This document shows, piece after piece, positions 1,530 to 18,552 of a DNA stretch of 64,000 nucleotides. The DNA is from Mycolicibacterium holsaticum DSM 44478 = JCM 12374. GTDB taxonomy: Bacteria > Actinomycetota > Actinomycetes > Mycobacteriales > Mycobacteriaceae. The translations under genes were made by a program, and so were the position numbers. The notes below the pieces were generated by a model that worked only from the letters and a program-made list of their open reading frames with translations, was not told where the DNA came from and searched no databases. The number at the start of each line of letters is the position of its first letter. Position 1 is the first letter of the stretch. The stretch spans positions 2,480,001-2,544,000 of the forward strand of contig NZ_CP080998.1 of assembly GCF_019645835.1 (NCBI RefSeq). Direction: 5' to 3'.

Positions 1530-1660
1530 CCATCGCGTCGATCGTCAGCAGGGCGCCGTACAGCACGGCGTCGGCGATCGAGCGCTTGCTCACGTTATGT
1601 GCCAGCCTCATACGCCGCACCTGACGAGAACCGCGCACGACACGTGGGCATCTCGTCAAC

Positions 1661-1717
1661 GATTATGCAGCAATCGAATATGCAGGGTTACCCGTAAAGT
1701 ACGCCGTATCGCGGTGT
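1661..1717 (+). repeat. Dispersed direct repeat, copy 1
   Basis: The core at 1673-1697 (ATCGAATATG, GGGTTAC, CGTAA) matches copies 2 and 4 at 22 of 25 positions, and similarity to copy 2 continues on both sides (about 7/12 left, 13/19 right). It lies just beyond the stop of the first MazF-like toxin. The core holds the small palindrome TTAC-N2-GTAA. No known element was recognised. Confidence 0.7.
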
Positions 1718-1760
1718 CTACCAATTGCTTTTGTCCAATGTGGTGGTGACCGCGCAGCGC

Positions 1761-2072
1761 TCAGAGATCGAGGACGACGCGTAGGGCTGCATCGACGCGG
1801 CGCATTTCGTCGAAGCTGAGGAACCCGACGCTCTTGCCGAGCCGGCCTGGATCTATCGCTGCAGTCTGCTCAGCAAGCACCCGGGTGTTGAGGCCGCCGA
1901 TTTCAACTTCGGGTCGGAAGCTGGCGGCACGAGCCGACGTGGACGTCGGTGCGACTAGCCAGGTCGACAGTGGCAATTGATCTGACTGAACGACGACCGC
2001 GTAGCGGAAACCGGCCTGTTCGTGACCGCGACTCCCCCGCGGGGCATGCAACTGAAAGACCTCACCACGCAC
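1761..2072 (-). CDS. MazF/PemK-type toxin, module 1
   Basis: 103 residues. The N-terminus RGEVFQLHAPRGSRGHEQ followed by RYAVVVQSD is the MazF-fold start: the first strand, then the Arg-rich loop with the conserved E-Q and R-Y-A-V-V positions. MazF toxins are usually sequence-specific endoribonucleases. The GTG at 2072 is chosen because it overlaps the antitoxin stop by 11 nt, the normal coupling in such operons, and it removes a long low-complexity Arg/Pro N-terminus that a more upstream start would add. Its RNA target is unknown. It is not closely similar to the second toxin at 2605-2949. Confidence 0.8.
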   Translation of the reverse strand: MRGEVFQLHAPRGSRGHEQAGFRYAVVVQSDQLPLSTWLVAPTSTSARAASFRPEVEIGGLNTRVLAEQTAAIDPGRLGKSVGFLSFDEMRRVDAALRVVLDL

Positions 2073-2295
2073 GCAGGGTCTCCATATCGCGCAGCACCTG
2101 CATGGCCTCCGCGCGATCGGACTCGTCTTCGGCAACGCTCTCCGCCTCGGCGCGAATCGCCGCGCTGGCCTTCCGGCGTGCGGCATCGATCAGAGCAGAT
2201 CGAACGGCTGCGGACACAGCCGTGCCGTCTTTGGTCAAGACCTCCAGCGCCTTCGATGTGTCTTCGTCCGGCCGGAAGGTAATCGTGTCAGCCAT
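2062..2295 (-). CDS. Ribbon-helix-helix-type antitoxin, module 1
   Basis: 77 residues. The N-terminus (ITFRPDEDTSKALEVLTKDG) has the strand-helix-helix pattern of ribbon-helix-helix DNA-binding antitoxins. The acidic, Ala-rich C-terminal helix (residues about 40-77) would wrap the toxin. It is the first gene of a two-gene operon, antitoxin before toxin, with an 11-nt overlap. A TACACT box lies about 7 nt upstream of the ATG, which could make the transcript leaderless, a common mycobacterial arrangement; this is an inference. Confidence 0.75.
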   Translation of the reverse strand: MADTITFRPDEDTSKALEVLTKDGTAVSAAVRSALIDAARRKASAAIRAEAESVAEDESDRAEAMQVLRDMETLRAW

Positions 2296-2524
2296 AGCGA
2301 CAGTGTACGACGTTTTGTAAGACAGTCACTGGGTTCCCCGTCGGCGCTGTCTCGGCACGGCAGCGACAACTCCCGCAGCGGGCTACCACTGACACCTTGG
2401 TATGGCACCCCAGCAAACAGAAGGCGGGTATTCGGACCGTCGCGGATCGCTCACAGCGGCCACGTCGCCACGACGAGGATCGGGGCTCCAGTCTTCCCTG
2501 GCGCACTTGCGTCGCCGCTCGATT

Positions 2525-2590
2525 CAGGAGGAATACGACGGAATCGAATATGGCGGGTTACCAGTAAACTACACCGCATTGCCCTGCTGC
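2525..2590 (+). repeat. Dispersed direct repeat, copy 2
   Basis: The core at 2543-2567 is identical over 25 bp to copy 4 at 17682. The left flank (CAGG, then GGAATACG) matches copy 3 at about 15 of 20 positions, and the right flank matches copy 1. It sits between the two toxin-antitoxin modules, just beyond the stop of the second toxin, in the same orientation as copies 1 and 3. Confidence 0.75.
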
Positions 2591-2604
2591 CCAACGGTTC
2601 TCGT

Positions 2605-2949
2605 TTACCGCGCAAGCCCGAGAAATGCCATCATGGCTCGCTCGACTTCGACGACTTGTTCCGCAGTCAGCCGACCGACTCGCGCGTGGACGTTCGACCT
2701 CCTGACAGTTGTGAGCTTGTCGATCATCACGTCACTGTCGTGGTCGAGTCCGGATAACCGTCCGTCTCCGCCGGCTATCCGAATGCGCATTAGCGGAGCC
2801 TCCAGTAATGCGCTGGTGATCGGCGCAACCGCCACCGACATCGTGGCATCGAACAAATCATCCTGGACGATCACCGCGGGACGCGGTTTTGTCGAGTAGA
2901 CACCCCCCGCTACGGTCCAGATCTCTCCTCGGTTCACTCCTCGTCCCAT
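2605..2949 (-). CDS. MazF-type toxin, module 2
   Basis: 114 residues. [11 protein letters not shown], then [11 protein letters not shown], is the classical MazF opening; [14 protein letters not shown] and [13 protein letters not shown] follow in the expected order, and it ends with the C-terminal helix. This is a standard-length endoribonuclease toxin. It overlaps the antitoxin gene by 16 nt. A GTG at 2937 is an alternative start nearer to the family's usual N-terminus. Module 2 is clearly a different MazF lineage from module 1, so the two units did not arise by tandem duplication. Confidence 0.88.
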
Positions 2950-3140
2950 GGCGTCGAGACAGCTTCGATGAAGTCCTGATCATCGCTGTTTACATCCGCC
3001 CGCGCCACCAGTGACGATTGACGATGAGCCTCGGCGGCAAAACTCTCGGTGCGCACGTCAGGCACCCAGACTTGCAGTGGGCGCAGGCCGCGCTCCCGCA
3101 TGCGCCGGCGGTACTCGCCGACCCTGTCTCTCACCGCCAT
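2934..3140 (-). CDS. MazE-type antitoxin (DUF3018-like), module 2
   Basis: 68 residues. The N-terminus ([20 protein letters not shown]) matches the small antitoxins often annotated as antitoxin MazE or DUF3018, which pair with MazF toxins. The acidic C-terminus ([13 protein letters not shown] and following) is the likely toxin-binding part. A perfect 12-bp palindrome lies 9 nt upstream of the ATG at 3140, a sensible autoregulatory operator. Confidence 0.82.
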
Positions 3141-3148
3141 GGCAACAT

Positions 3149-3160
3149 GTTACATGTAAC
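3149..3160. promoter_or_regulatory. Palindromic operator candidate for MazEF module 2
   Basis: GTTACATGTAAC is a perfect 12-bp palindrome 9 nt upstream of the antitoxin start at 3140. MazE-type antitoxins normally repress their own operon through such sites. Confidence 0.5.
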
Positions 3161-3309
3161 GTCAAGTCCAGGTCGCCAGATAGTCAGATCGGCTGGGACG
3201 ACAAGCAACACATCAGCTACGGCCCCGCTTTACGCTTAGTCTGAGCTACCTGGGATGCTCATCAACGCAGGCCCCAGGAGGTGCTCCAACCTCGACGCGC
3301 CACTTGCTG

Positions 3310-3370
3310 CCAGGTGGAATACGGCAGCATTGAATATGGCGAGTTGCCCGCAGTAACCACACTGCAGCAT
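3310..3370 (+). repeat. Dispersed direct repeat, copy 3 (diverged)
   Basis: TTGAATATGGCGAGTTG at 3330-3346, then CAGTAA after a 3-nt insertion, is a degenerate version of the core. The left flank CAGGTGGAATACGGCAGCAT closely matches copy 2. It lies to the right of the second toxin-antitoxin module and immediately left of the recombinase remnant. The central TTAC-N2-GTAA palindrome is destroyed here. Confidence 0.6.
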
Positions 3371-3424
3371 AACGGAACTCGAGTACTGATGGCTGTCTGC
3401 TTCTGTCAGATCCACTACTTCTCG

Positions 3425-3547
3425 AGAGTGTTCCGCGAAACTCCCGCTCCCCTGGTCGCCGAAATGCTTGGATATAGCTACCAAATCACCCAGCGCCACG
3501 CGGACCTATCGGGCACCAACTGGGCCAGGTACCCGCCCACCTACATG
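3425..3547 (+). pseudogene. Remnant of a tyrosine-recombinase-like protein C-terminus
   Basis: A stretch of about 38 codons reads PAPLVAEMLGYSYQITQRHA then DLSGTNWARY. It resembles the extreme C-terminus of actinobacterial integrase-like proteins (LP-APV-A-LLGY, then T-RHA, then W-RY). The upstream part of the same open frame is repeat copy 3 and no catalytic domain is present, so this is at most a fragment. The downstream codons look non-coding. Recognition is from memory of the family pattern. If right, it marks past integration next to the toxin-antitoxin units. Confidence 0.4.
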
Positions 3548-3722
3548 TCGTGGGCAGAACACGTTAAAGACCCTGATGTTAAGGGATATTTGACCGGCCC
3601 AGGTCTCGGGCTGTGCGACCGCATGCATCATGACCACCACGACGGTGACAGGCCGCCCGCCTGAACGCAATGTTGACGAACCCGAAGCACAACCGCGACT
3701 TGCGTACTGAGGGGCAAGAACT

Positions 3723-4027: not shown

Positions 4028-6319
4028 ATGACAATCTCAGCGCCCAACATCGTCGGGCCGCTCACCCCAGCCAGTTTCGGTCTACGCGTTTCCAACGTGC
4101 TCGTCGGCGGTGTCGTGCACGCGTTGAGAAATGGAGTGGAGATCGGTGCGCACGCTTCAGTGGCTGCGGACATGAGCTTCGAGTTCTATGCGGGCGTGAC
4201 GCTCAATGCACACGAGGAGATCGTCGCCGTTCAGGAGTTCAACGGCGAAGCGAGCCCATTACCCCCGCGCGGCACTGTCGTTCAGGACATTGCACCGCCG
4301 TACTCGGGACATAGATTCGTCTCGCACGTATTCGGTTGCAGCAGTTGCCTGTTCCTGGCTGGTGTCACGGCTGGCGCTGAACTTCGCCTACAAGCGAGCG
4401 GAGACTTCTTGGGTTCGGTCCGATCCGTTGACGGCACAGCAGTCATTGATCTGGTTCGCCCGGTCAAGCCCGGAGAGCAAGTTGAGTCGCTGCAGATCGT
4501 TAATGGGGTTCCCGGCCCGATTGTCACGAGCCCTCCGGCTGATCGCGCACCGGGAATCGGAAAGAAACGGATAGTGCAGCTCGCGTTCGGTCAAGCGATG
4601 GAGTGCAAGCCCGGGTTCGACGTCTCCAACGTCATCGACGGCGAGACACTCATCGTGCACCCCGACATCGAAGGCGACCCGAAGGCTTTCCACGAAATCA
4701 GGGTGCCCGTGCCGTCCATGCTCCTGTCGTTACCGCCGCTGAAGGCGCACCAGCGAGTCAAGGTTTTCGAGCAGCTGTGTGAGCGCGGAGAGGATCAGCA
4801 AGGAACCGAGGTCGTGGCGGCTCCCCTGCAGTTTCAGCAGCTACCCCATGTGCTCGGACCCCTGTGCGCCGGCACGCCCAAGGTCACCGTTGCGGGGTTG
4901 ATACCTGGCGCGGTGGTCAAGGTAAAGCAGGGCGATGTCGTTGTCGGACAGGGTCAGGCCAGCGGTGGCTCCCTAGAAATGTGGGTCACCCCGTTGGCCG
5001 CGGGAGAAGTGTTCGCCACAGAGGAACTGTGTACAAAGTCGTGCAGCGGACCTCCTGAGCCAGTTGTGGCGAGTCCCGCGCATCCAGAGCCGTGTGAGGT
5101 CATCGACGCGTTGTTCGACTGTTCGAATCAAGTCTGGTATCGGGACGCGCGACCGGGCGCATGGCTGGCGTGCTTCTCAACGGAGGTCGGTCAACTAAGC
5201 GATTGGGTGCAGGCCCCGGCCGCCGAGGGCGTTGTGCACCTTCACACGCCGCTGAAAGAAGGCCACCATGTCCTGCTGCGCCAGTCGGCGTGCGGCGCTG
5301 AGCCGCAGCCGTCGCGAAACATAGTCGAAGTCCAGAAACTTCAGATTTCGGCGCCCGTAATCCAAGGTCCGCTTTATATCGACCAGCCTCGAATCAAAGT
5401 GAGCGCGATACCCGGGGCGCTTGTACAGCTATACACACGTGACTCCTACGTCGGCCATGCGGTTGCCGACCATACCGGCACCGCGATATTTCATTCGAAG
5501 GTCAGCACATCGGCGAACCTCTACCCATTGGACTATCGGTTCGTCAAAGCCCGGCAGTTGCTGTGCGATCGTGTGTCGAGCCCTTCCCCGGAAGCGCAGA
5601 TCAAGGACCGGCGGCCGTTGGCGCCAACCATCATCGCGCCATCGGTCGGGGAGGTTGGAACAGCAGTACAACCCCTGCTGCGATGGAGTGACCCCGGTGC
5701 TGGAACGAAGGATGCCGCGGTCCGGTACTTCGTATACGTGTCCGACGCGAGCAATCCACAACTAGATGAGAACAAGCCGTGGCTCGCCAGGGAGGTTGTC
5801 ACGACGACTCAACTGATGATGCCCCACGAACTGCAGTACTCGAAAACGTTCCACTGGTTTGTCCAGGGCATCTTGGGTGAGCCCGGATTCGAGGTGTCCG
5901 GACCGCGATCCGTCGGGAAGTTCACCACCATGAATCAGCCTGTGCCCCAAGAAGGAGATGGACAACCTCCGGACGGAGGACCTCCGTCGGCGGCAAAGGG
6001 TAACGCGCGCGTGCTGGCCTACAACTGCTATCCGTCTCGACGCCCAATCACTATCTACGTTCGGAACGCGACGGAGGGCGGCCCGTTCGAGAAAAAGGGA
6101 ACGCTTGATTCGCAGTACACCGAATGGGGAACCTGCGGCATCAACGTGAACTCGGTTCCGCTCACGATCCCACTGAAGGACGGGCAGATCTTTGAGATCG
6201 TCGCCGTGGACCCCGGAAACGACAACTGCCCCGACGGCGATCCCCTGACACTCGGATGCAGAGCCAACAACGTATTCCTCCTTGGCAATGCCAAGGGCGG
6301 TGACTTCATCTTCGGGTAA
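4028..6319 (+). CDS. Unrecognised modular protein with about six Ig-like repeats and a C-terminal Cys-rich domain
   Basis: 763 residues, no signal peptide and no membrane span. Six modules of about 80 residues follow one another: roughly 4-78, 90-168, 180-265, 272-345, 353-430 and 440-522. The clearest ones share P-x-I-x-GPL, then P-x-I-x-V, then PGA-x-V-x-L, VG, and a closing Q-x-LC-x3-S/G (for example SAPVIQGPLY, VSAIPGALVQLY, RQLLCDRVSS). This suggests a beta-sandwich repeat. Residues about 530-636 look like a fibronectin-III-type module (LLRWSDPG, RYFVYVSDA, FHWFVQGI). A Pro/Gly linker leads to a Cys-containing domain at 661-763. A weak GAGAGGG-type site lies upstream of the ATG. It is probably co-transcribed with the gene 29 bp downstream. 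Function unknown; an adhesin, carbohydrate-binding or particle-associated role would be guesswork. Confidence 0.75.
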   Translation: MTISAPNIVGPLTPASFGLRVSNVLVGGVVHALRNGVEIGAHASVAADMSFEFYAGVTLNAHEEIVAVQEFNGEASPLPPRGTVVQDIAPPYSGHRFVSHVFGCSSCLFLAGVTAGAELRLQASGDFLGSVRSVDGTAVIDLVRPVKPGEQVESLQIVNGVPGPIVTSPPADRAPGIGKKRIVQLAFGQAMECKPGFDVSNVIDGETLIVHPDIEGDPKAFHEIRVPVPSMLLSLPPLKAHQRVKVFEQLCERGEDQQGTEVVAAPLQFQQLPHVLGPLCAGTPKVTVAGLIPGAVVKVKQGDVVVGQGQASGGSLEMWVTPLAAGEVFATEELCTKSCSGPPEPVVASPAHPEPCEVIDALFDCSNQVWYRDARPGAWLACFSTEVGQLSDWVQAPAAEGVVHLHTPLKEGHHVLLRQSACGAEPQPSRNIVEVQKLQISAPVIQGPLYIDQPRIKVSAIPGALVQLYTRDSYVGHAVADHTGTAIFHSKVSTSANLYPLDYRFVKARQLLCDRVSSPSPEAQIKDRRPLAPTIIAPSVGEVGTAVQPLLRWSDPGAGTKDAAVRYFVYVSDASNPQLDENKPWLAREVVTTTQLMMPHELQYSKTFHWFVQGILGEPGFEVSGPRSVGKFTTMNQPVPQEGDGQPPDGGPPSAAKGNARVLAYNCYPSRRPITIYVRNATEGGPFEKKGTLDSQYTEWGTCGINVNSVPLTIPLKDGQIFEIVAVDPGNDNCPDGDPLTLGCRANNVFLLGNAKGGDFIFG

Positions 6320-16930: not shown

Positions 16931-17671
16931 ATGAGGACATCACGGCCGGCCGTCTTCGGCGCAGTGGCGCGATCTGCAAACGTCCTGATTCTGGCATGGA
17001 TGACTGCCGTTGCCGGATTGCTCACCGTCCCCGCTGCGAGCGCTTTCGCCGCCGACGACTCCTGCGCCGCAGTAGAAGTGGTTTTTGCCCGCGGCACGTT
17101 CGAACCACCTGGTGTCGGGGCAACCGGCCAAGCGTTCGTCGATGCACTCAATGCTCGTCTGCCCGGACAAGCTATTGAGGTCTACGGGGTGAATTACCCC
17201 GCGTCGTTGGCTTTCGGTCAGGCGGCCGACGGTGTCGCGGACGCAGTGAACAGGATCGAATCGATCGCCACGCAGTGCCCGGCGACGAAGATCGTGCTCG
17301 GCGGCTACTCGCAGGGCGCGGCGGTGGCCGGGTACGCGACCTCCAGCGTCGTGCCGGCCGGAATCAATCTTCCTGCCGGCCTGTCCGGGCCGATGCCCGT
17401 GTCGGTTGCGCCCCACGTTGCCGCGGTGGTGCTCTTCGGGACGCCTGACGACTGGTTTCTGGGCCTGGCCGACCGCTCCGCGCCGCCGATCACCATCGGA
17501 GATCTCTACGTCAAGAAGGCGATACAACTGTGTGCGCCCGGCGATCCGGTGTGCTACCCCGGCGGACTGAATCGCTCCGCCCACAGCGCGTACAAGGTCA
17601 ACGGGATGGCCGACCAAGCGGCCGACTTCGTGATCGGTCAGCTGTCCGCGCCCTCGCCTGCGGCCGTATGA
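16931..17671 (+). CDS. Secreted cutinase-family esterase (Culp type)
   Basis: 246 residues. The signal peptide is residues 1-40, with a hydrophobic stretch and an ASAFA/AD cleavage region. The catalytic Ser is in GGYSQGAAVAGY (Ser127), Asp in CAPGDPVCYPGG (about Asp205) and His in RSAHSAYK (about His218). The Cys pairs of cutinases are present (DSCAAVEVVFARGT, QCPATK, LCAPGDPVC). The ATG at 16931 has GGAG 7 nt upstream; the GTG at 16901 is a weaker alternative. Mycobacterial cutinase-like proteins hydrolyse lipid esters at the cell surface rather than plant cutin. Confidence 0.9.
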   Translation: MRTSRPAVFGAVARSANVLILAWMTAVAGLLTVPAASAFAADDSCAAVEVVFARGTFEPPGVGATGQAFVDALNARLPGQAIEVYGVNYPASLAFGQAADGVADAVNRIESIATQCPATKIVLGGYSQGAAVAGYATSSVVPAGINLPAGLSGPMPVSVAPHVAAVVLFGTPDDWFLGLADRSAPPITIGDLYVKKAIQLCAPGDPVCYPGGLNRSAHSAYKVNGMADQAADFVIGQLSAPSPAAV

Positions 17672-17681
17672 ATTCCGCGAG

Positions 17682-17706
17682 ATCGAATATGGCGGGTTAC
17701 CAGTAA
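17682..17706 (+). repeat. Dispersed repeat, copy 4 (core only)
   Basis: The 25-bp core is identical to copy 2 at 2543-2567, about 15 kb away, but the flanks are not shared. It starts 10 bp after the cutinase stop and about 60 bp before the next gene's start. The TTAC-CA-GTAA centre is intact. Confidence 0.75.
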
Positions 17707-17766
17707 GACCGGCGGGTGGAGGGACCTCCCGCCCCTGCGTGCCGCACGTCTGCGTATGGTCGGCCA

Positions 17767-18552
17767 GTGACTGACGCATCACCGACCATCAACCCCTTCG
17801 ATCTTTCCGGCCACGTCGCGGTGGTCACCGGCGGCGGCTCCGGCATCGGCTTGGGATTCGCCGGCGGCCTGGTCCGCGCAGGAGCATCCGTGGCCATCCT
17901 CGGCCGCACCGCCTCGCGCCTGGACGACGCCGCCGAACATCTCCGCCGCCACGGCCGACCCGTGCTGCCAGTCGTCTGCGACGTCACTGACGAGGACGCC
18001 ACCGCCGCGGCCATGGCGCGGATCCGTAGCGAATTCGGCTACCTCGACTCGTGTTTCGCTAATGCCGGAGTGCGCGGCGGGTTCATTCCAGTGCTCGAGA
18101 CATCGCTAGAAGCGTTCCGCGAAGTCACGCGAGTCGACCTCGACGGCGTGTTCGTCACGCTGCGCGAAGCTGCCCGCCAGATGATCGAGGCCGGCCGCGG
18201 CGGCAGCCTGGTGGCGGTGTCGAGCCTGGGCGCGTTCCAGGGGATGCCGCGCCAACCCGCCTACGCGGCCTCCAAGGCCGGTGTCACCTCGTTGGTCGAC
18301 AGCATGGCGGTCGAGCTGGCCCGTTACGGAATCCGCGCCAACACGGTGGCTCCGGGCTGGTTCGACACCGATATGACCTCGGAGGGCCTGAACAACGAGC
18401 GGTTCCGCGAGCGGGTGCTGCCGCGGGTTCCGGCGCGCCGCTGGGGCGCACCTGACGACGTCGGCGGGGTGGCCGTCTATCTGGCCAGTGCGGCGAGCCG
18501 CTATCACACCGGCGACGTGCTGCGTATCGACGGCGGCTATCTCAAGTTCTAG
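17767..18552 (+). CDS. Short-chain dehydrogenase/reductase
   Basis: 261 residues from the GTG at 17767. VAVVTGGGSGIGLGFAGGL is a textbook TGxxxGIG motif, followed by N (CFANAGVRGG), S (VAVSSLGAF) and YAASKAG for the catalytic tetrad. The C-terminus (YHTGDVLRIDGGY) is typical of FabG-like enzymes. An earlier in-frame GTG at 17716 would translate the region just behind repeat copy 4 and adds a Pro/Ala-rich tail, so 17767 is preferred. Substrate unknown. Confidence 0.85.
   Translation: MTDASPTINPFDLSGHVAVVTGGGSGIGLGFAGGLVRAGASVAILGRTASRLDDAAEHLRRHGRPVLPVVCDVTDEDATAAAMARIRSEFGYLDSCFANAGVRGGFIPVLETSLEAFREVTRVDLDGVFVTLREAARQMIEAGRGGSLVAVSSLGAFQGMPRQPAYAASKAGVTSLVDSMAVELARYGIRANTVAPGWFDTDMTSEGLNNERFRERVLPRVPARRWGAPDDVGGVAVYLASAASRYHTGDVLRIDGGYLKF

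Follow-up and report, generated by a model that had tools for sequence, protein, structure and literature searches.

One-way cassette arrays beside the predicted dif site of mycobacteria, and a recombinase operon that probably inserts them

A stretch of 64,000 nucleotides from Mycolicibacterium holsaticum DSM 44478 (assembly GCF_019645835.1, contig NZ_CP080998.1, positions 2,480,001 to 2,544,000; hereafter the window) carries a short repeat and two toxin-antitoxin modules. Our analysis indicates that the 38-bp core of this repeat forms the conserved end of gene cassettes lined up as one-way arrays beside the predicted dif site, and that these cassettes are likely inserted there by an operon of three genes, A-B-C, the first of which encodes a tyrosine recombinase. 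We put the probability of this reading as a whole at about 0.8, and are less sure of the exact role of each gene of the operon. What alignments show directly is the units and the order in which they stand, the junction points that they share, and an operon at a nearly fixed position; the role of the enzyme and the recombination reaction are what we infer from them. A preliminary description of the window had guessed at a cassette array, or at insertion into a repeated site, perhaps by a mobile unit, and that guess is supported. Outside its view lay the anchor of the array – a dif site 5 kb to the left of the window – and the fact that toxin-antitoxin pairs are one class of cargo.

A profile search of the window places three direct copies of the repeat on the + strand, at about 1660-1734, 2530-2604 and 3316-3391, close to the positions first proposed for them (1661, 2525 and 3310), together with a fourth and shorter copy at 17.7 kb (17669-17706, + strand). 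The first three have E-values between 4e-20 and 5e-25 with a profile built from these same three, and the fourth scores 1e-6 with that profile. With a profile of 136 copies, which from the window takes in the second and fourth copies alone, the scores of the four are 40.9, 71.2, 25.8 and 42.7 bits, as against a maximum of 9.6 across 20 block-shuffled windows. Exact matches to GAATATGNNGNGTTNCC in the 5.62-Mb genome are confined to the four copies in the window, with two one-mismatch matches elsewhere, and model R1 likewise finds four copies in this genome.

Across the 136 aligned copies conservation is concentrated in a core of 38 bp, about AGGAATACGGCGGAATCGAATATGGCGGGTTACCAGTAA, and drops sharply on either side. 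One reading frame stays open across the first three copies, but a coding remnant of a single gene was rejected as the origin of the repeat: conservation stops at the edges of the core. The 17-mer GAATATGGCGGGTTACC is present with at most two mismatches in 179 of 297 genomes of the genus, as against 32 of 297 for the reversed control pattern. A public species collection contains 86 exact stretches, and among the 80 matches listed 61 are from Mycobacteriaceae and 19 from other taxa; the flanks of these 19 do not match the repeat, while the remaining six stretches were counted as mycobacterial because their flanks carry the whole core. With a core model based on sequence only (60 copies), 94 of 148 genomes of the genus have a match, as do 29 of 201 genomes of a family sample, 22 of the latter belonging to other genera. 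A lone copy lies near an HNH endonuclease gene on plasmid p1 of M. gordonae (L007:4001-4041), with no second copy in the 8-kb stretch.

The arrays have a common head. Upstream of them stands GCCGATAAGCNACATTATGTCAA, built on the 11-6-11 plan of a dif site, the place at which joined chromosome copies are cut apart. A pattern search gave a match, mostly a single one, in 284 of 297 genomes; from its sequence, its usual single occurrence and its position, GCCGATAAGCNACATTATGTCAA is predicted to be the chromosomal dif. In M. holsaticum it lies at 2474946-2474968, in the same orientation as the repeat copies; from there it is 5.05 kb to the window and 6.7 kb to the first copy, both of which lie to its right. 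Mean GC skew, taken from ten 20-kb samples per side, is +0.008 to the left of this site (eight of ten samples positive) and -0.010 to the right (nine of ten negative); in a second genome (G236) the means are +0.015 and -0.027, the three nearest samples on the left being already negative.

Copies of the core follow the orientation of this site. Where a stretch holds exactly one dif (50 stretches, 100 distinct copies), 99 of the copies lie on the right-arm side and in the orientation of dif (108 of 109 copies at 57 loci before duplicates were removed); the first copy stands at a median of 1.4 kb from dif. All 52 loci with at least two copies (score at least 18; loci of one genome overlap) have a single orientation. 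A genome-wide check of 30 genomes, drawn from the matches listed for both dif and core, located 50 of 59 copies less than 40 kb from dif, on its right-arm side and in its orientation; the rest comprise two copies elsewhere on the dif contig (G006, G087), four on another replicon of G146, and three on draft contigs without a listed dif. The possibility raised in the preliminary description, that copies are scattered at random through the genome, is thus not borne out, and the genome-wide searches for core and dif led us to reject a scatter of the kind left by insertion sequences. The fullest array (G119) has dif at its head followed by 17 copies across 47 kb, all in one orientation. In two stretches (L135, L171; G279) dif is separated from the first core by just 184 bp, a left end of the element without genes that resembles a deletion product.

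What lies between successive sites is exchangeable. As read from alignments, a unit runs from a left-end sequence to a 38-bp core; the first unit abuts dif, each later one abuts the preceding core, and across the 100 copies and 50 contexts, with one dif per stretch, the bounds other than dif are cores. One and the same unit can stand behind dif in one genome and behind a core in another: a comparison of 96 dif contexts with 219 right sides of cores gave 83 core-dif pairs with a cassette in common, to which 24 of the contexts and 26 of the cores contribute. In 48 of the 83 pairs identity starts no more than six bases from the end of TTATGTCA (at dif) or of GGTTACC (at the core). Both cassettes of the window have counterparts of this kind, that of the first standing directly behind dif in Mycolicibacterium hippocampi (L079; 85% identity over 643 bp) and those of the second directly behind dif at five loci (L009, L196, L200, L204, L205). 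The occurrence of the same cassettes in different neighbourhoods, along with the single orientation of every multi-copy locus, is what a cassette array leads one to expect. A target-site duplication of a DDE transposon was rejected, as the bases behind dif and behind cores differ, by eye, within loci L060 and L061.

The units are small, with a median length of 1.2 kb and two genes in 66 of 137; 220 of 295 genes point toward dif and 75 away from it. Copies flank cargo other than that of the window in other species, as 131 distinct units make clear: 44 carry one of six toxin families searched for and 87 carry none, while control DNA gave two hits in 430 kb, a contrast biased upward because the queries were taken from array loci – five from the cargo listing and one, RelE-like and without a hit in the units, from loci around arrays. 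Among 150 cargo proteins tallied by Pfam family (from 184 usable after merging at 60% identity; genes were called with a simple custom script) are five PIN, two PemK and two Phd/YefM proteins, beside enzymes, TetR regulators and insertion sequence genes. None of these three toxin-antitoxin families is among the first 25 Pfam families listed for the control, a tally of 138 of 274 usable proteins; 150 had been drawn, and 12 were then excluded manually, either as recombinase genes (L246, L252) or as open reading frames cut by the end of a locus. Defence cargo is rare: 31 PADLOC families match at E<=1e-5 over the 150 proteins, and of the best 25 of these one has three members and the others one each.

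The candidate for the enzyme that moves the cassettes is the operon A-B-C, found at the head of the array and reading away from dif in nine of 40 dif regions read, a set that is not random, most of the first 20 having been chosen for their copies. The operon starts 94-295 bp to the right of dif. Protein A, which is truncated in two of these regions, is a tyrosine recombinase of 367-369 aa (PF00589, 64 bits); R194, K227, H301, R304, H327 and Y336, which we take to be the catalytic set of this family, are invariant in all 27 aligned sequences. B is a helix-turn-helix protein of the Cro/C1 type (111-121 aa, PF13443). C is 395-532 aa as called and 468-532 aa when complete; its longer forms have a cysteine-rich, zinc-ribbon-like N-terminus, and it has no Pfam match above the cut-off. 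At a threshold of E<=1e-40, A is present in 85 of 297 genomes. M. holsaticum itself has traces: its dif is followed by a left-end sequence resembling one that elsewhere precedes gene A, and the window contains, just to the right of the third copy, C-terminal remnants of the recombinase-operon proteins C and D known from locus L189. A different element of 5.7 kb, with a related recombinase, is present in five near-identical copies in G230 (L246-L250), one of them with an internal gap; in four of these the DNA at the left edge resembles, by eye, the 3′ terminus of a gene for a tyrosine recombinase.

Away from dif, on plasmids, the operon closes with a core and stands flush with other Xer-like 11-6-11 sites. 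On the megaplasmid of M. chubuense NBB4 (NC_018022) two A-B-C copies align over 3293 bp with five mismatches. None of these lies outside the 11-6-11 palindrome at the left edge and the single base that follows it; the palindrome reads TTCATGGATAA-TCTTCA-TTATCCATGAA in one copy and CTCATGGATAA-TCTCTA-TTATCCATGAG in the other. Since these palindromes share the 11-6-11 form of dif, they would be part of the target and not of the element. In one of the two copies a core match starts 37 bp past the match to C. Of 32 operon loci – 30 from the search for A and two Rhodococcus plasmids – 23 have an Xer-like site of chromosomal or plasmid type, with 0-5 mismatches, that starts 272-296 bp to the left of A. 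At the other nine the best such site has 8-10 mismatches: in L225 and L239, where the start of A is truncated, dif adjoins the end of the element; L216 and L233 lie behind sequences that by eye resemble diverged cores, and what precedes L267 is a core-like end; in L215 and L223 the upstream DNA is short; in L240 A is truncated; and in L214 nothing of the kind was found. The two Rhodococcus plasmids, pGA1 and pGS01, have 4750 bp in common with four mismatches, and the left neighbour of this stretch is a dif-like site (GTGCCGATAA-CCTTCG-TTATGTAAACT) in pGA1 and the core-like end of a preceding A-B-C element in pGS01. In M. crocinum only the right flank of one plasmid copy finds a match.

A palindromic Xer-like site near TTCATGGATAA-TCTNNA-TTATCCATGAA recurs as a second type of target on plasmids and other replicons (L251, L255, L256, L257, L258, L264, L265) and may be a resolution site of mycobacterial plasmids. 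Plasmid pJCM6399 of M. gallinarum (L264) carries an array in which a dif-like palindrome is followed by a left end and by two cores that face the same way.

These observations can be brought together in a single mechanism. Protein A, aided by B and C, would recombine a cassette or element in circular form with the outer edge of an Xer-like site or of a core, exchange taking place roughly one base beyond the right arm of dif or, at a core, at its right end. Every insertion would leave dif intact and shift older cassettes farther off; with its centre and both arms untouched, dif would continue to serve dimer resolution. Arrays without the operon, including that of M. holsaticum, would gain or lose cassettes only when another element provides the enzyme. 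The array is best read as the work of recombinase elements that target Xer sites and of non-autonomous cassettes, many with toxin-antitoxin pairs: an integron-like structure without an integron integrase or attC-like folding.

Applied to the window, this mechanism would make its two cassettes successive insertions atop an older, decayed recombinase element, the tail of which persists to the right of the third core. The first core copy (R1, 1660..1697, +) is the right end of the stretch that starts at dif 6.7 kb leftward. Cassette 1 (1698..2529, +) follows, with a toxin of the PemK/MazF family (1761..2072, -; 103 aa from the start as called, the longest open reading frame reaching 2186) and a putative antitoxin of 77 aa without a Pfam match (2062..2295, -). 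After R2 (2530..2567, +) comes cassette 2 (2568..3315, +), which holds a second PemK/MazF toxin (2605..2949, -; 114 aa) and a MazE-like antitoxin (2934..3140, -; 68 aa, PF11455), and then the more diverged R3 (3316..3353, +). Both toxins match PF02452 (E 2.5e-17 and 1.1e-19), and they are mutually just 22% identical over 90 aa (E 0.18), in agreement with the earlier claim of two MazEF-type modules without close kinship. The same description had each copy just past a toxin stop; this holds for R1 and R2 (stops at 1761 and 2605) and fails for R3, which lies upstream of the second module. Its recombinase-like fragment at the end of the array is accounted for by the remnants of proteins C (3437..3577, +; 60% identity to residues 434-479 of the L189 protein) and D (3509..3604, +; 62% identity to residues 262-292), which overlap. 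To the right of these remnants is an open reading frame of 763 aa without a Pfam match (4028-6319, +). The fourth copy, R4 (17669..17706, +), stands directly behind a cutinase-family gene (PF01083, 16901-17671) and is followed by a short-chain dehydrogenase gene (17716-18552).

Several facts weigh against this reading. The analysis is one of sequence comparison, in which neither recombination, nor a circle, nor an excision was observed. A is absent from the M. holsaticum genome at E<=1e-40; given this, and its presence in 85 of 297 genomes, its part in moving cassettes rests on association. As many as 72 of 96 dif contexts have no cassette in common with a core, some of them looking empty and others being unmatched in the sample. 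The count of 99 in 100 copies was drawn solely from stretches that contain a dif, and there are copies far from dif or on other replicons (G006, G087, G146, G203, L257). A clean empty chromosomal site for the array of M. holsaticum was looked for and not found; in a relative (G068, L201) a decayed element end lies to the right of dif, and some 2.6 kb of other DNA separates it from the shared flank. No recognizable core marks the right boundary of the stretch common to pGA1 and pGS01. Finally, a comparison of profiles found no relation between C and A, and the structural model of C (mean predicted local distance difference test score 66.5) has its best fold matches to XerH, XerA and Cre at E 0.013 or worse, none passing 0.001; judged from this model, C may be a non-catalytic relative of the recombinases.

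The most serious alternative is that the host enzymes XerC and XerD insert the cassettes, as in the Xer-exploiting elements and the Acinetobacter dif modules discussed below, and that A-B-C is a mere passenger. XerCD are general host enzymes, the anchor of the arrays is dif, and many arrays lack the operon, A being found in 85 of 297 genomes and the core in 94 of 148. However, strand exchange by XerCD falls inside the 6-bp centre of dif and would swap the right arm, whereas here dif keeps TTATGTCAA, the cores keep GGTTACCAGTAA, and identity begins outside the right arm. Because the cores lack the dif right arm that such an exchange would have given them, we reject central exchange by XerCD. 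Nor can an 11-6-11 Xer site be seen by eye in the core, and A-B-C stands at a nearly fixed distance from Xer-like sites that differ in sequence. Insertion by the host enzymes strikes us as unlikely, if not negligibly so.

Far less room is left for a degenerate or divergent integron in which the core would be attC, dif would be attI, and an IntI has gone unrecognised. The one-way order, the small cargo, the toxin-antitoxin pairs and an anchor site with adjoining units all recall such a system, but A scores 39.1 bits against the integron-integrase model TIGR02249, for which the cut-off is 265, and the folding expected of attC is not general among the cores. Over 136 copies the left flank plus core has a mean z of -0.21, true flanks doing no better than swapped ones (p 0.75), and the core plus right flank a mean z of -0.40; R2 of the window gives 0.31 and 0.28. 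One copy in L131 folds well (z -3.75 and -3.45), and in L113 a long hairpin lies directly to the left of one core, most copies showing no excess folding. An attC-like hairpin was for these reasons set aside as a general feature.

An equally improbable account treats the repeats as fragments on which RecA shuffles neighbouring DNA, with no site-specific enzyme. That some arrays are old and decayed and that the M. holsaticum genome lacks the operon would suit it, but 38 bp is short for RecA, different cargo joins dif and cores at nearly the same base, and the two megaplasmid copies of M. chubuense are identical except for their target sites and the adjoining base. That the repeats are operators or terminators of toxin-antitoxin operons, an idea prompted by the toxin genes adjoining R1 and R2, can be dismissed almost outright, since it is contradicted by the 87 units free of the six toxin families, by R4 between its cutinase and dehydrogenase genes, and by copies whose orientation tracks dif while genes point both ways.

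Insertion by A-B-C, our preferred reading, can be set against several known systems. In integrons and chromosomal superintegrons, small promiscuous cassettes, with toxin-antitoxin pairs abundant among them, are arrayed one way from a fixed platform site at one end. The arrays described here resemble them in having exchangeable cassettes in one direction beside a platform site (99 of 100 copies; cassettes common to both positions), and differ in that there is no integron integrase and, in the tests run, no general attC-like folding, that the platform is the predicted dif, and that the recombinase operon is itself one of the units. GInt islands, too, have a recombinase operon with a small helper, and their insertion next to a site is oriented. 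Integrative mobile elements exploiting Xer (IMEX), such as LME-1 and the CTX phage, use the host Xer enzymes, with exchange within dif, into which CTX phage integrates. As described for LME-1, integration at dif leaves dif intact upstream and an altered sequence downstream (PMC9765430). Insertion at dif is thus a shared property; unlike in IMEX, the boundary here lies outside the right arm, the cores end differently from dif, and complete elements encode their own recombinase.

In Acinetobacter, dif/pdif modules, including toxin-antitoxin pairs, are reported to form linear islands at Xer sites, with 28-bp C/D and D/C Xer sites as the bounds of the modules; in the same account the main dif is considered not to join in module formation, as dimer resolution would suffer (PMC12907356). 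The likeness lies in cargo modules, toxin-antitoxin pairs among them, at an Xer site, and the difference in a single Xer site per array, a single orientation and a non-Xer core. Among published relatives, those nearest to the A-B-C operon, when compared by description, appear to be the Tn554-related pairs of Actinobacteria, which with the recombinase-in-trio (RIT) sets have adjacent tyrosine recombinases, often with a small third protein, and occur on chromosomes or plasmids of hosts that include Mycobacterium and Rhodococcus (PMC3414803). Section 10 of that paper gives the Tn554-related sets a recombinase of 611-828 aa and often a TnpC, and reports for them neither a dif target nor cassettes (PMC3414803). 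Our partner protein C, with 468-532 aa and no Pfam recombinase match, is set apart from both by description; as to the trait of adjacent active recombinases, A has the full set of residues and C only a weak structural similarity to recombinases. Among the titles and abstract openings listed by full-text searches of one library, none describes cassette arrays at a mycobacterial dif.

Integrons are the textbook cassette platform. On our reading the arrays described here belong with other tandem cassette arrays made by site-specific tyrosine recombination, and we see a fair chance that they merit a class of their own. With little more than even confidence we go further, and suggest that mycobacteria and their relatives possess a second cassette platform, unrelated to integrons and placed on the dimer-resolution site, where an operon that hunts Xer sites captures toxin-antitoxin and other cassettes into an open-ended array, leaves dif unharmed, and provides one route for the collection of toxin-antitoxin pairs. 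If this is true, then cassette arrays have more than one origin, this one differing from integrons in enzyme, site and anchor; and because insertion would fall outside dif, the main dif, considered unable to host modules, could host them after all. It would also offer a testable route by which mycobacteria gather toxin-antitoxin pairs, along with a simple rule for finding accessory genes in many mycobacterial species, given a core in 94 of 148 genomes: read the DNA to the right of dif.

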